NCBI GenBank assembly: GCA_017439345.1
Contig: JAFSJJ010000013.1
Location: 62,001 to 126,000 of the forward strand
Reading direction: 5' to 3'
DNA: 64,000 nt
From: Synergistaceae bacterium
GTDB lineage: Bacteria; Synergistota; Synergistia; Synergistales; Aminobacteriaceae
In this document: in pieces, positions 3,101 to 62,490 of the stretch
How the letters are laid out: each line of letters starts with the position of its first letter
Position numbering within the stretch: the stretch's first letter is position 1
Translations under genes and position numbers: made by a program
The notes under the pieces: model-generated
The model's database searches: none
Seen by the model: the letters and a program-made list of their open reading frames with translations, nothing else
What the model was told of the DNA's origin: nothing

Positions 3101-4146
3101 GATTCGGAGTAACAACCGGGACATGTGCTGCCGGAGCGTCAAAGGCTGCTGCTATATTCCTGAGTTCCGGTGAAATTCCTGACTCTGTGATTATCAAGAA
3201 TCTTGAAGGCCATGAATTTAATTTACACACGTTTAAATATGACTCAAAATTTTTCGGAGTGATAAAAGACTCAGGCGATGACAAAGGCGACATCACTAAC
3301 GGCGTAAAAGTTCTTGCAAGTCTTGAAGTCATTGAAGGCAGCAATCAAATTATTTTCTCAGCAGGTGAAGGAGTCGGCACTGTAACTCTTCCTGGACTCA
3401 AGATTAAACCGGGCGAGCCCGCTATTAACCCGGTCCCCCGAAAAATGATTGAGCTTGCCATACGTGAAATAATTCCGGATCAATCACTAAATGTAACTAT
3501 CTCAATTCCTGACGGTGAAAGAATTGCACTCAAAACTTTTAACCCTAGATTAGGCATTACCGGAGGCTTGTCGATTCTGGGAACTTCAGGACTCGTTAAG
3601 CCAATGAACGAACAGGCATTACTTGACTCTTTGACTCTTGAACTTAGCATGATTAACGCTTTGAACTTTCACGAGTTATATATCACTATAGGACATACAG
3701 GAGAGCTTGCAGTCAGAAAAATTTTTCACGTAACAGGACGCAATATAATTCAGTCAGGAAATTATACAGGTCATGTTCTTGATGAGGCAGCAGGATTAAA
3801 TTTTTCACGAGTCATAATCTGCGGTCATCTGGGAAAATTATTAAAGCTGGCAGCAGGAAATTTCAACACTCATAACAAAATTTCTGACGGGAGACTCGAG
3901 GCACTTTGCACCCATTTGGCACTGGCAGGAGCTTCACGCGATGTTATATATAAAGTCTTTCACAGCAATACGACTAACGAGGCAATAAATATAGTCGCTC
4001 AGGAAAATTTTAATCACGTCTGGAATAACTTGGCCGATATAATAGCGATTAAATCACAGCAGAGAGTATATAATAAATTTCATGTTGACGCAGCTTTTAT
4101 TGATAATGACGGGAATTTATTAGGTGCAAGTCAATGCTTGAGATAA
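3064..4146 (+). CDS. cbiD: Cobalt-precorrin-5B C1-methyltransferase
   Basis: A CbiD of 360 residues, the C1-methyltransferase of the anaerobic cobalamin pathway. The N-terminal LRFGVTTGTCAAGASKAAA motif is a signature of the family, followed by KPGEPAINPVPRKMI and LGITGGLSILGTSG. The annotated ATG places about a dozen residues before the conserved core and overlaps cbiC by 37 bases; no better start with a strong ribosome-binding site is visible. It overlaps cbiET by 13 bases. It belongs to the contiguous corrin-ring block at 795-5327. Confidence 0.93.
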   Translation: MCNSQRDSLHSLRFGVTTGTCAAGASKAAAIFLSSGEIPDSVIIKNLEGHEFNLHTFKYDSKFFGVIKDSGDDKGDITNGVKVLASLEVIEGSNQIIFSAGEGVGTVTLPGLKIKPGEPAINPVPRKMIELAIREIIPDQSLNVTISIPDGERIALKTFNPRLGITGGLSILGTSGLVKPMNEQALLDSLTLELSMINALNFHELYITIGHTGELAVRKIFHVTGRNIIQSGNYTGHVLDEAAGLNFSRVIICGHLGKLLKLAAGNFNTHNKISDGRLEALCTHLALAGASRDVIYKVFHSNTTNEAINIVAQENFNHVWNNLADIIAIKSQQRVYNKFHVDAAFIDNDGNLLGASQCLR

Positions 4147-5327
4147 TAATAGCAGGTGAAGGAACAGGCTTAATGACTCAGCAGGTTCGCGAGGCTCTTA
4201 ATGAGTCTGATACTATATTTGCTCATGAGAGATTCAGGGCATTAATTAATGACGAGAGAAAATTTATAGCACTCAAGAATTTCAACGACGCATTTAACTT
4301 CATAGATAATTACGAGTCAGCGAAAATATTATTTCTTGTCTCCGGTGATCCGTGTTTGTATAGTTTATTGCCATTAGTGAAAAAGAGATTCCCTAACGCA
4401 GATATTAAAGTCTTGCCCGGTATCAGCTCGTTACAAGTCATATGCTCTCATGCCTGCGAAACTTGGAACGGCGCAAATATTATCTCAGGTCATGGAAGAT
4501 TAATTAACTCCGGAGCTTTCTTGAACTCAATCGAACGCAATAGAGTAAATATATTATTCTGTGATAAAAATTTTTCTCCTGAATACATTTGCAGCAAACT
4601 TGAGTCAGAGAATATCTCAGGTCTTGAAGTGTTTATCGGCGAGAGACTCGGCAGTGAATCAGAGAAGATTTATCACGGTTTACCCAAAGAATTTATTAAT
4701 CACGGGTTCAGCCAGCCAGCAATAATTTTAATTCGCAATAATAATATTTACGTCCCTGAAAGATTAAGACTGCGGGATAAAGATTTTATCAGGAGCGAAA
4801 ATATTCACATCACACATGAATTAATCAGAGCAGCTATACTTGACAGACTCGAACTTGACTCAGACTCTATATTATTCGACATCGGAGCAGGTACGGGAAG
4901 CATAAGCATTTCAGCAGGACATGAGCATAATGATATAGAAATTCACTCGATAGAATATAAACACGAAGCAGTAAATCTTATTTCACGCAACATCAAGAAA
5001 TTTCACTTGCATAACATAACTTTACATGAAGGCCGTGCAATCGGGTTTATAAAGAGTCTTCCCATTCCTTCTCATGTCTTTATAGGCGGTTCGGGAGGCG
5101 AGTTAGCTTTTATTCTTGAATATCTTGCAAGTCTTGATGAGTCTATAAGGCTCGTCCTTGAATGTGTTACCCTTGAGACCCTGAACACAGCATTTAACTT
5201 TATGAGCAGCATGAAAAACTTTGAAGCCCTCCAGATTTCCGCAAGTGTCTCTAAGAATATCGCTGACTCGTTGACCCTCATGAAGGCAAACAATCCGGTT
5301 ATGATTCTCTGCGCTGACTCGAGATAG
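4134..5327 (+). CDS. cbiET: Fused cobalt-precorrin-7 C5-methyltransferase and C15-methyltransferase/decarboxylase
   Basis: A 397-residue fusion of CbiE (about residues 1-200) and CbiT (about 205-397), like CobL. The CbiE half begins LEIIIAGEGTGLMTQQVREAL and carries the VSGDPCLYSLL and VLPGISSLQVI methylase motifs. The CbiT half has the class I methyltransferase SAM loop LFDIGAGTGSISISAG and a later FIGGSGGEL motif. Together the two halves methylate C5 and C15 and decarboxylate the C12 acetate. It is the last corrin gene here; no terminator is evident before the promoter of the next gene. cbiL, cbiH and cbiJ are absent and presumably lie upstream of the window. Confidence 0.92.
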   Translation: MLEIIIAGEGTGLMTQQVREALNESDTIFAHERFRALINDERKFIALKNFNDAFNFIDNYESAKILFLVSGDPCLYSLLPLVKKRFPNADIKVLPGISSLQVICSHACETWNGANIISGHGRLINSGAFLNSIERNRVNILFCDKNFSPEYICSKLESENISGLEVFIGERLGSESEKIYHGLPKEFINHGFSQPAIILIRNNNIYVPERLRLRDKDFIRSENIHITHELIRAAILDRLELDSDSILFDIGAGTGSISISAGHEHNDIEIHSIEYKHEAVNLISRNIKKFHLHNITLHEGRAIGFIKSLPIPSHVFIGGSGGELAFILEYLASLDESIRLVLECVTLETLNTAFNFMSSMKNFEALQISASVSKNIADSLTLMKANNPVMILCADSR

Positions 5328-5346: not shown

Positions 5347-5374
5347 TTTACAAATAAATAAACTCTGATATAAT
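5347..5374 (+). promoter_or_regulatory. Probable sigma-70 promoter of the binding-protein gene
   Basis: TTTACA at 5347-5352 and TATAAT at 5369-5374 are separated by 16 bases, and TGA directly precedes the -10, which gives an extended -10. The start codon lies 43 bases downstream, after a GGAGG ribosome-binding site. Confidence 0.7.
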
Positions 5375-5416: not shown

Positions 5417-6217
5417 ATGAAGAAGTTATTACTTGCAGTTATGGTTATGATTATGTGTGTAAGTGCGTGTTTTGCAGACGGATTAAATATCTCGAAGCCT
5501 GAAGACTTAGTTAATATCAAAATAGGCACTCAAAGGGGAACTATAGCAGAAGGCATAGCTAAGAAAATGCTCGGCGACAAGGCATCAACACAGCTTACGA
5601 CCTACGAGAAGGCAACGGACGTTATTCAAGCTTTGAAAGTCGGCAAGATTGACGGAGCTATCATCGACGAAGCACCGGCATTACAGTTCGTAAAGAATGA
5701 CCCCGATAATATTAAAATACTTCCTGAGCCTATGACTACGGAACAATATGCAATCGGTTTCAAGCAGGGAAATAAAGAACTCGTCGAACAGGTTAATAAA
5801 GCCCTTGCAGAGATTAAGGCAGACGGTTCACTCGAAGTTATCATGTTGAAGTATAAAGAGGATCCTACAGCACCTAAGGCTTCAGATATCGACCTTCACA
5901 AAGGGGCTTCGGGCGGAGTCTTGAAAGTCGGAACTGAGAGTGGCTTTCCTCCCTATGACATAAAGACTGCTGACGGCTACACGGGAATCGATATAGAGAT
6001 GTGCGCACTTATCGCAGGCAAACTTAATAAAGAGCTTGTTATTGTTGCATACCCGTTTGACTCGTTATTTATGGCAGTGAACTCCGGACATGTTGATATG
6101 ATCTGCGCAGGTATCACAGTTAATGAAGAGAGAAAGATGTTCACGGACTTTTCGGATCCTTACGAGGACGCTAAACAAGTCGCAGTTGTATTGACGAAAA
6201 ATTACGCAGAGAAGTAA
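5417..6217 (+). CDS. Secreted family-3 solute-binding protein with circularly permuted lobes
   Basis: A periplasmic amino-acid-binding protein of 266 residues with a signal peptide (residues 1-20, ending ACFA). Unlike ordinary family-3 binding proteins, the order of the halves is swapped. Residues 24-149 match the usual C-terminal part: KPEDLVNIKIGTQRGT, GKIDGAIIDEAPAL, EQYAIGFKQGNKELVEQVNKAL and GSLEVIMLKY. A linker of about 18 residues follows. Residues 168-262 then match the usual N-terminal part: LKVGTESGFPPYD, YTGIDIEMC, AGITVNEERK and FTDFSDPY, including the ERK arginine that normally contacts the ligand carboxylate. It has its own promoter and a following terminator; no permease or ATPase gene is adjacent. 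The ligand is probably an amino acid, but this is not shown. Confidence 0.85.
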   Translation: MKKLLLAVMVMIMCVSACFADGLNISKPEDLVNIKIGTQRGTIAEGIAKKMLGDKASTQLTTYEKATDVIQALKVGKIDGAIIDEAPALQFVKNDPDNIKILPEPMTTEQYAIGFKQGNKELVEQVNKALAEIKADGSLEVIMLKYKEDPTAPKASDIDLHKGASGGVLKVGTESGFPPYDIKTADGYTGIDIEMCALIAGKLNKELVIVAYPFDSLFMAVNSGHVDMICAGITVNEERKMFTDFSDPYEDAKQVAVVLTKNYAEK

Positions 6218-6237: not shown

Positions 6238-6275
6238 TCCCCTTGATTCTGATTCAAGAGTCAGAGTCAGGGGGA
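6238..6275. terminator. Bidirectional intrinsic terminator
   Basis: A stem of about 15 pairs (two G-T pairs) runs from TCCCC at 6238 to GGGGGA, with an 8-base loop. T-rich sequence lies on either side. It separates the binding-protein gene from the convergent epimerase gene. Confidence 0.75.
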
Positions 6276-30634: not shown

Positions 30635-31942
30635 ATGAAAGCAATTCATTATATTAACCAGTTCTTCGGTCAGATAGGCGGAGAAGAGAAAGCTGATCAG
30701 ACTCCTATATTTCACGATGGATTAATCGGCTGCTCGATGATGCTTAACGGCATGGTCAAACCTGAGATCGAAGTTACGAATACAATCGTCTGCGGAGATA
30801 ACTACATCACGAATCACACTGAAGAGGCTCTGAAAGAAATATTTGCGTTCCTTGATACTAAAGAGTTCGGAATGTTCTTCGCGGGCCCGGCATTCATGGC
30901 AGGACGTTACGGAGTCGGCTGCGGTATAGTGTGCAAGGCAGTGAGCGAGCGTTATCATGTTCCTGTAATTACGTCAATGAACGAGGAGAACCCCGGCGTT
31001 GAAGAGTACAAATCAGTAGCATACATCTTCAAGGGCGGACGTAAAGCAACGTTCATGAAGGCAGATATTACACCTATGGCAGCATTTGCAAAGAAGATCG
31101 CTAAGGGTGAGACGTTACTTCCGGCAGCTCAGGAAGGTTATTTCCCGCGCGGTATTCGTGCTGAGATACCCTGTGACACAATGGCAGCTGATAGAGTCAT
31201 CGATATGTTACTCAAGAAAATTAACGGTGAGCCTTTCCAGACAGAATTAATTATTCCTGCTATGGAGAAGATTCCGCCCGCAGCTCCAGTTGTAGACTTG
31301 AGCAAAGCTACTATCGCTCTCGTATCATCAAGCGGAGTCGTTCCCGTTGACAACCCTGACAGGATTCAGAGTGCTTCGGCTCAGAAGTGGGGCAAGTATG
31401 ACATCTCAAAACTCGATCACTTACCTGAAGGAGTCTTCAAGACGATACACGCAGGCTTTGACCCGGCGGCAATGTGCGCAGTACCTGACAGAGGCGTACC
31501 TCTTGATGCAATGCGTTATTTTGAGAAGCAGGGCAAGATCGGCAAACTTTACGATTACTTCTATGTAACAGTAGGAACAGGAACAACTCAGGCATTCGCG
31601 GCCAAGTTCGGCAGAGAGATAGCGAAAGAACTTCACGATGCACATGTTGACGCAGTAATTCTTACATCGACCTGAGGCACTTGTACTCGTTGCGGTGCAA
31701 CGATGGGCAAAGAAATCGAGCGTACCGGAATTCCTGTAACAGTTATGTGCAATTTGATTGACGTTGCAAAGACTGTCGGATCAAACAGAATGGTTCAGAC
31801 CGTGTCAGTTCCTTATCCTCTGGGAGACCCTGAATTAAGCAAAGAGGCAGAGTGGCAGCTCAGGACAAGCAGAGTCGGTGCAGCACTTGATGCCCTTGCG
31901 ACCAAAGTAGAAGAACCTACAGTATTCCCGTCAAAATTCTAG
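30635..31942 (+). CDS. grdB: Reductase component B selenoprotein subunit (Sec at in-frame TGA)
   Basis: A selenoprotein of 435 residues, interrupted by an in-frame TGA at 31673-31675. Read as selenocysteine it gives the family motif TST-U-GTCTRCGATMGKEIER. With GrdE it forms component B, which takes glycine (or sarcosine/betaine) and passes the carboxymethyl group to GrdA. The start follows GAGGGGTGA. The N-terminus (KAIHYINQFFGQIGGEEKAD) and GPAFMAGRYGVGCGIVCKAV are typical. A strong hairpin begins 11 bases after the TGA. A terminator follows at 31956-31988, so the BCCT gene probably has partly separate transcription. Confidence 0.96.
31687..31703 (+). promoter_or_regulatory. SECIS hairpin of grdB
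   Basis: TCGTTGC-GGT-GCAACGA forms a perfect 7-pair stem with a GGU loop. It starts 11 bases after the Sec TGA, inside the coding sequence. Position and the GU in the loop fit a SelB-binding bacterial SECIS. Confidence 0.8.
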
Positions 31943-32017: not shown

Positions 32018-33544
32018 ATGTCTGATACTAGCAGTAATAAATCACCGTCTAAAATTAACTCAGTATACATAATTTCAATCGCAATAACTTTCGCAATAGT
32101 CGCATGGGGTTATCTTGCACCCGATAACTTTGGAAATTTCGCTAATTCATTATTCGGAGGCTTGACTAAATATTTCGGCTGGGGCTATCTATTAACAATG
32201 AACAGCTTTGTTGTATTCTGTATCATTATGGCCTTCAGCAGATTCAGGCACGTTAGACTCGGTTTACCAGAAGACAGACCGGAGCACAGCAATATATCAT
32301 GGTTCGCAATGTTATTCTCTGCGGGAATGGGAGTCGGACTCGTTTTCTACGGAGCAGGCGAGCCGTTAATACACTTCACAAATACACCGTTCGGAGCAGA
32401 ACCCGGAAGCATTCAGGCAGCACGTGACGCAATGCAGATTTCATTCTTTCACTGGGGGCTTCATCCTTGGGCAGGTTATGCGGTTATAGCTATGCCTATG
32501 GCTTATTACCAGTTTAGACGCAATTCACCCGGATTAATAAGCTCGTTATTTATCCCGTTAGTAGGTCAGGAGAAAGTTGACGGCTGGTTCGGAAAGTTCG
32601 TAGATGTCCTTGCGATATTTGCGACTCTTGCAGGTATAACGACATCACTAGGACTCGGAACGTTACAGCTCAACAGCGGACTCAATGAGATTTTACACAT
32701 AGACAAGACCACGATGATTCAGGTAACGATAATAATATTCCTTGCAGTGTTATATACAGGCTCGGCGGTTTTGGGAATTGACAAGGGAATCAAGTTCGTA
32801 GCAAATTTGAATTTATTTATCTGTCTCGTGTTAATGGTCTCGTTGTTCTGTGTAGGTCCTTCACTTCCGATTATTGACTCGTTAATGACAGGAGTCGGCG
32901 ACTTCATAAGCGGTTTTGTGAAAGAGAGCTTCTCAATGGCACCATACGGAGGCAAGTACGCTTCACACCTTCAGAACTGGACTCTTTACTATTGGGCATG
33001 GTGGATAGCTTGGGCGCCTTTCGTAGGTTCATTCGTGGCGAGAATTTCACGGGGCAGGACAATAGCCGAGTTCGTAGCAGGAGTCTTAATCGTCCCGGCA
33101 CTTGGGAGCTTCACATGGTTTGCGATTTTCGGAACGTCTGCGCTTCATTTGCAGCTCGTCAAGGGCATAGACATAGCGGCACAGGTTACAAAAGATATTT
33201 CAGTCGGAGTATTCGCCCTGTATAAATATTATCCGCTGGGCTATATCATGTCAGTAATAATGTTAGTCTTGATAACTACATTCTTTGTAACGTCGGCGAA
33301 CTCAGCAACGTTTGTGTTGTCAATGTACTCGAACTACGGCGATTTGAATCCCTCGAAGTCAAAAATGGGAGTCTGGGGTGTTCTCATGGCAGCTCTTGCA
33401 ATAGTATTGTTGATGACAGGAGGACTCCAGAATTTATTAACGATTTCACTAACGGCAGCACCTCCGTTCGCAATAATAATGTGTTGTGCGTGTTATTCGT
33501 TATGGAAGTCATTAAGCAAGGACGAGCAGGAAGGTAAATTATAA
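32018..33544 (+). CDS. BCCT-family betaine/carnitine/choline transporter
   Basis: A 508-residue, roughly 12-TM transporter of the BCCT family. Signatures are VAWGYLAPDNFGNFANSLFGGLTKYFGWGYLL, GAGEPLIHFTNTPFG, MQISFFHWGLHPWAGYAVIAMPMAYYQF and the family motif YYWAWWIAWAPFVGSFVARISRGRTIAEF. It imports a quaternary or related amine such as glycine betaine, probably with Na+ or by exchange. Its place directly after grdE-grdB raises the possibility that the reductase acts on betaine or sarcosine, or that the transporter brings in a methylated glycine. Confidence 0.92.
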   Translation: MSDTSSNKSPSKINSVYIISIAITFAIVAWGYLAPDNFGNFANSLFGGLTKYFGWGYLLTMNSFVVFCIIMAFSRFRHVRLGLPEDRPEHSNISWFAMLFSAGMGVGLVFYGAGEPLIHFTNTPFGAEPGSIQAARDAMQISFFHWGLHPWAGYAVIAMPMAYYQFRRNSPGLISSLFIPLVGQEKVDGWFGKFVDVLAIFATLAGITTSLGLGTLQLNSGLNEILHIDKTTMIQVTIIIFLAVLYTGSAVLGIDKGIKFVANLNLFICLVLMVSLFCVGPSLPIIDSLMTGVGDFISGFVKESFSMAPYGGKYASHLQNWTLYYWAWWIAWAPFVGSFVARISRGRTIAEFVAGVLIVPALGSFTWFAIFGTSALHLQLVKGIDIAAQVTKDISVGVFALYKYYPLGYIMSVIMLVLITTFFVTSANSATFVLSMYSNYGDLNPSKSKMGVWGVLMAALAIVLLMTGGLQNLLTISLTAAPPFAIIMCCACYSLWKSLSKDEQEGKL

Positions 33545-62302: not shown

Positions 62303-62373
62303 AAATTTTCTGGTAGATATAAATATATTTTCCCCGAAGACAGCAGGCGCGTTAATGCTTAATAATTACCTGC

Positions 62374-62459
62374 TCAGGAGAAGAGTTAATTAACGTGAGA
62401 ATAATTCTCTCCTGATTAGATTTGATTTAGATTGCGCAAATTTATTCAGGAGGGTTTTT
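62374..62459 (+). promoter_or_regulatory. L10-leader attenuator of rplJL
   Basis: Three mutually exclusive segments lie in the rplA-rplJ gap. TCAGGAG (62374-62380) can pair with CTCCTGA (62409-62415), or that segment can pair with a second TCAGGAG (62446-62452) followed by GGTTTTT. The first pairing would be an antiterminator and the second the terminator, as in the ribosomal protein L10 leader that senses free L10(L12)4. Confidence 0.72.
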
Positions 62460-62490
62460 GTTTATATATTCAGGAGGTGAAAATAAAAAC

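Follow-up and report, generated by a model that had tools for sequence, protein, structure and literature searches.

A family-3 solute-binding protein with its halves in reversed order: sequence and structure prediction point to a natural circular permutant in Synergistaceae

Introduction

The amino-acid-binding proteins of family 3 (SBP_bac_3, cluster F), such as GlnH, ArgT/LAO, HisJ and AncQR (4zv1), carry their N-terminal half ahead of their C-terminal half. Natural circular permutants were previously known only in other families of binding proteins. OpuAC of Bacillus subtilis (2b4l) is a documented natural circular permutant among the glycine-betaine-binding proteins (PMC2395249), and Tp0684/TpMglB-2 of Treponema pallidum, a naturally permuted binding protein, has kept both ligand binding and closure around the ligand (PMC4990184). 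In family 3 a permutant has been engineered. In cpLAO-BP one inter-lobe linker was deleted and the old termini were joined by (GGS)4 (PMC5087393, after Okada 2009). The sensor still binds lysine, with 107 uM against 3 uM for the native protein and thus 36 times more weakly (PMC5087393), so that full function of a permutant is not automatic. Family-3 domains also occur in series, as in GlnPQ, which has two canonical tandem substrate-binding domains (6h30; PMC8025302). Searching the openly accessible literature, with subscription papers outside its scope, we found no earlier report of a natural family-3 permutant.

Here we describe such a candidate from the window, a stretch of 64,000 nucleotides of Synergistaceae DNA.

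Results

The gene with reversed halves, which is preceded by a Shine-Dalgarno-like GGAGG upstream of its ATG, is listed with its parts and surroundings in Table 1.

Table 1. Features of the permuted binding-protein gene and its surroundings (positions in the window)
Feature	Position	Strand	Basis
Complete permuted family-3 solute-binding protein gene	5417..6217	+	ORF, 266 aa; sequence and predicted fold
Putative Sec signal peptide, residues 1-20, probable cleavage after ...CFA	5417..5476	+	Sequence; Ala20 91% conserved; low pLDDT there
C-half, residues 25-148, placed first: lobe 2 and C-terminal helices of lobe 1	5489..5860	+	Structure and E. coli alignments, fold model
Linker, residues 149-167, from ancestral C terminus to ancestral N terminus; Ile158-Asp159 invariant	5861..5917	+	Orthologue alignment
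N-half, residues 168-262, placed last: N-terminal part of lobe 1 and first hinge strand	5918..6202	+	Pfam, structure and E. coli alignments
Sigma-70-type promoter-like site, TTTACA-16-TATAAT, extended -10 TG	5347..5374	+	11/12 consensus matches
Intrinsic terminator, 17-pair stem, T-rich tail	6238..6275	+	Sequence scan
cbiET (cobalamin synthesis), upstream neighbour	4134..5327	+	Kept in 19/33 orthologue loci

The encoded protein scores 108.3 bits with the PF00497 profile (cut-off 26.4), but it does not show the canonical order. Residues 25-145 match the family-3 C-terminal half (4zv1 residues 109-229, 71 bits), whereas residues 165-260 match the N-terminal half (4zv1 residues 8-104, 70 bits). 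We therefore file it, by its sequence, as a permuted variant of PF00497 and not as a standard member. In a rotation scan, the scores against E. coli ArgT, HisJ and GlnH rose from 88, 103 and 152 for the unrotated protein to 165, 201 and 235 when it was cut at the linker. The peak lay at a cut at about residues 147-171, and shuffled sequences reached at most 39. With residues 166-266 placed first, the rotated sequence matched 4zv1 in one continuous alignment of 147 bits and TIGR01096 in a single stretch covering positions 26-249 of 250. Judged by these alignments, the protein is a circular permutation of a family-3 binding protein.

These results agree with a sequence-only reading of the locus. 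It had placed the usual C-terminal half first, directly after the signal peptide, and the usual N-terminal half last, and both placements were borne out. Its linker of about 18 residues measures 19 by our boundaries, and the permutation-aware alignment that it had proposed is the rotation scan with its peak at the linker. Across orthologues, Tyr146 to Leu169 encloses 20-27 residues, and Ile158-Asp159 is kept in 36/36 relatives.

In the alignment, Phe177, Phe214, Gly232, Thr234, Arg239 and Asp84 fall on ligand residues of GlnH and ArgT, whose roles we take to be those in the LAO and GlnBP structures. Phe177, Phe214, Thr234 and Arg239 lie in the N-half; Asp84, Phe177, Phe214 and Arg239 do not vary among 36 relatives (group A2), and the pocket residues as a set are invariant or almost so. 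The alignment thus supplies what is expected of an alpha-amino-acid site, namely an Arg for the carboxylate (Arg239), an Asp for the amino group (Asp84) and an aromatic pair (Phe177/Phe214). The second aromatic is Phe in both GlnH and ArgT, while the first is Phe in GlnH and Tyr in ArgT. Gln39 occupies the position of GlnH Lys115. The aligned pocket residues suggest that the ligand is likely to be an amino acid. Comparison with two orthologues gave dN/dS values of 0.037 and 0.055, the second with synonymous changes near saturation, and indicates that selection on the gene is strongly purifying.

The gene follows cbiET at a distance of 89 bases, and its orthologues stand after cbiD-cbiET in 19 of 33 loci; some of the remaining loci are truncated by a contig end. 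No Rfam match for a cobalamin riboswitch was found ahead of it. Single consensus promoter matches prove little on their own, and in the promoter region as a whole such matches are not in excess of shuffles; a TATAAT does stand at the same place ahead of several orthologues. Given its own promoter-like site and terminator, the gene is probably transcribed alone. No transporter gene adjoins it, which makes it an orphan.

Elsewhere in the window, the frame at 30635-31942 reads on through a TGA (TSTUGTCTRCG) and has a SECIS_4 element inside it at 31676-31713; from its sequence it looks like a selenoprotein subunit of a GrdB/GrdH-type glycine/betaine reductase. It is followed by a BCCT-like transporter gene at 32018-33544. 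A ribosomal protein L10 leader was found at 62316-62469 (Rfam RF00557, 59.9 bits).

A paralogue on contig 13 (L022), 52% identical to the window protein, heads a complete ABC importer operon. Downstream, with overlapping ends, are a GlnP/YecS-type permease and a GlnQ-type ATPase, the same types that serve canonical family-3 proteins. The trio of binding protein, permease and ATPase is repeated in nearly all orthologues of L022 and also in genomes G034 and G043. These operons make a role of the permuted proteins in ABC import very probable. In the genome, 11 uninterrupted binding proteins stand against two clear amino-acid permease genes, on contigs 13 and 36, so that sharing of permeases is likely. 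Orphan binding proteins sharing one importer are common in general. For the orphan in the window, with its own promoter and terminator, the contig 13 permease is the probable docking partner.

On contig 36 (L025:3366-10311), five permuted, mutually divergent binding proteins are encoded in one operon together with a permease, an ATPase and a VanX-like D-Ala-D-Ala dipeptidase. With 214 bits, the dipeptidase does not reach the VanX cut-off of 320. Its gene content suggests that this operon perhaps takes up wall-derived peptides or D-amino acids.

The orphan state of the gene also allows another reading, in which the permuted protein has left transport and acts either in scavenging or as a ligand-binding partner of a chemoreceptor or sensor, with a possible link to cobalamin synthesis. 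Such a role would fit the gene's own promoter and terminator, the lack of an adjacent permease and the place kept after cbiET. The conserved pocket, the strong purifying selection, the close paralogue in a full importer operon and the general frequency of orphans on a common importer speak against it, and we consider it unlikely.

The genome contains 20 PF00497 matches in 12 loci, and all 12 are in C-N order. They lie on contigs 5 (the window gene), 6, 13, 16, 32, 36 (five genes) and 39 (two); none of its PF00497 matches is a canonical family-3 protein. On contig 39 (L023:5438-6096) one permuted gene is broken by an in-frame TAG and has an intact permuted gene alongside. Loss of the canonical proteins by the whole lineage was rejected, since other genomes of the genus keep a few.

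The sequence-only reading had suggested a search for the same order in other synergistotes, and the order proved to be a lineage trait. Genomes of the same genus gave full-length permuted matches, as did four further genera of the family (g5, g8, g10 and g11), and nearly every relative is also permuted. The stand-alone proteins that we read from other parts of the phylum have the canonical order, and a permease fused to a permuted domain was found as far away as another family of the order. A scan of about 85,000 species, using patterns built from three close sequences, returned only Synergistota among the best 80 matches. The named relatives among these came from rumen Synergistaceae and Fretibacterium genomes and were up to 94% identical. 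Judged by the number of pieces and their span, plasmids gave no sign of a permutant: the 15 best tblastn places in 532 records were in two pieces and spanned a canonical length.

In an IQ-TREE analysis of the re-ordered halves a single origin of the permuted forms was not rejected (p-AU 0.30). When five long-branched rows were left out, one branch separated permuted from canonical rows (SH-aLRT 87); long branches are the remaining caution for this tree. The direction of change, from canonical to permuted, is taken from the wide spread of the canonical order and not from the tree. Most simply, the permutation is an inherited lineage trait that goes back to one event.

In about 18 genomes of genera g1 and g11 the permuted domain is repeated within one long frame. 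We read about a dozen of these array proteins. Each complete one begins with a signal peptide, continues with 2 to 12 C-N units and closes with a permease domain; lengths go up to 3249 residues, and an ATPase gene comes next. Array loci include L139:858-10607 (G052), L137:4167-10925 (G063), L151 (G068), L140 (G084), L142 (G050) and L141 (G083), and further ones are L150 (G065), L138 (G061), L149 (G077), L147 and L148. Both GlnPQ and these arrays fuse several family-3 domains to one permease; the arrays differ in holding up to 12 domains and in being permuted. Single-unit fusions of a permuted domain to a permease occur in G122 (another family), G102 and G095, and at L203 a single chain of 899 residues combines a signal peptide with the permuted domain, the permease and the ATPase. 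Fusions of a canonical N-C family-3 domain to a permease (L193-L201, L205-L209), mostly of about 520-550 residues, are widespread in the order. In the tree they stand apart from the permuted C-N-permease fusions.

Within an array both junctions are continuous and the Pfam profile matches across N(i)-C(i+1). Hence the arrays could also be read as canonical domains out of register, with the N-half of one unit pairing with the C-half of the next, and the single copies as excised remnants of arrays. We hold this to be quite improbable. Eight arrays of 6-12 units alternate perfectly, beginning with a C-half and finishing with an N-half. The divergence of C(i) tracks that of N(i), with correlations of 0.61-0.93 against only -0.20 to 0.59 for N(i) and C(i+1), and both single-unit fusions and stand-alone genes exist.

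AlphaFold2, given an alignment of 36 relatives that were all permuted, predicted one closed two-lobed fold for the window protein (mean pLDDT 91.7, pTM 0.84). The model of the importer-operon paralogue group (91.7/0.83) has its elements in the same order. The sequence-only reading had looked to structure prediction to tell one closed binding-protein fold from two partial domains, and the former was obtained. On this prediction the protein would fold as an ordinary two-lobed Venus-flytrap. In the model, the long strands 107-116 and 250-259 resemble the pair of hinge strands, with the cut directly after 250-259. The best structure match in chain order was OpuAC (Z 14.0, 219 residues, 4.1 A), with model residues 18-265 on chain 5-264 at 13% identity, and OpuAC was also the best match of the paralogue-group model (Z 13.3, 4.3 A). 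Family-3 proteins compared in chain order followed behind OpuAC, with about 160-190 residues aligned at Z of about 11-12. Residues 164-256 are matched at 38% identity by the isolated first domain of T. maritima ArgBP.

Half-domains on one chain could in theory be exchanged between molecules. A single-chain prediction is also compatible with a domain-swapped oligomer, in which each N-half joins the C-half of a different chain and no permuted monomer exists. The closed monomer predicted with high confidence for both the window protein and the paralogue group, the conserved length and sequence of the linker, and the engineered cpLAO-BP, which works with a 12-residue join, make such an oligomer very improbable. 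Misassembly, which the sequence-only reading had raised, or a chance fusion of two gene fragments is practically ruled out, since dozens of independently assembled rumen Synergistota genomes (from goat, sheep, red deer, reindeer and roe deer) have the same gene and order with conserved synteny, dN/dS is far below 1 and the linker is conserved.

Discussion

Overall, we think it highly probable that the gene encodes a secreted, naturally permuted family-3 binding protein with a working importer role, and with the partner and the lineage history outlined here. The product would be a natural circular permutant of a family-3 (type II, cluster F) solute-binding protein, cut at the first inter-lobe hinge crossing, with the ancestral C and N termini joined by the conserved linker of about 19 residues. 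The chain would start in lobe 2, cross the hinge a single time, complete the rest of lobe 1 and end in the former first hinge strand, adopting the predicted Venus-flytrap fold. Conservation suggests that a polar alpha-amino acid is bound by a site of Arg239, Asp84, Thr234, Phe177 and Phe214. It would then be handed to a GlnP/GlnQ-type ABC importer, probably by docking on the permease of the paralogous contig 13 operon. A single inherited permutation event may lie at the start, with later multiplication into many paralogues and, in relatives, into tandem arrays fused to a permease.

The window protein shares with GlnH, ArgT/LAO, HisJ and AncQR the homology of both halves, the predicted fold and the amino-acid pocket. 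It differs from canonical family 3 in its reversed halves, in the linker that joins the natural termini and in the new termini at the hinge. With OpuAC it has in common the chain-order topology of a type II binding protein, whereas OpuAC belongs to another sequence family and binds betaine. Descent from OpuAC was rejected, as the window protein gave no match to its profile (PF04069) at E up to 1 and the likeness is one of topology only. Since the window protein belongs to family 3 by sequence, the two permutations presumably arose separately. TpMglB-2 is likewise a natural permuted binding protein, but it is a sugar-binding protein of type I (cluster B), is permuted inside its N lobe and needs a fourth hinge crossing; the type II family-3 sequence and the cut at the hinge set the window protein apart from that type (cluster Bc). 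The engineered cpLAO-BP has the same protein family and the same kind of cut, but is man-made and has the (GGS)4 join.

The permutant is most likely real and functional, and would be a new topological variant with an unusual expansion. As a tentative idea, which we hold to be possible but rather doubtful, hinge termini, one in each lobe, may have eased head-to-tail chaining. A single ancestral permutation in Synergistota could then have led to giant importers with up to 12 domains per permease chain; it could also have given rise to the large sets of stand-alone paralogues which, in some genomes, have taken the place of the canonical proteins.

Such permutants can silently escape gene callers and profile-based annotation. 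Amino-acid-binding permutants made in the laboratory serve as biosensors, and nature seems to have cut at the same kind of site. The natural series of stand-alone proteins, single fusions and arrays of 2-12 units offers material for asking what permutation does to folding, to ligand affinity and docking, and to the way in which multi-domain importers evolve. Here a natural permutation has seemingly been kept under strong selection and has become the usual form in a lineage.
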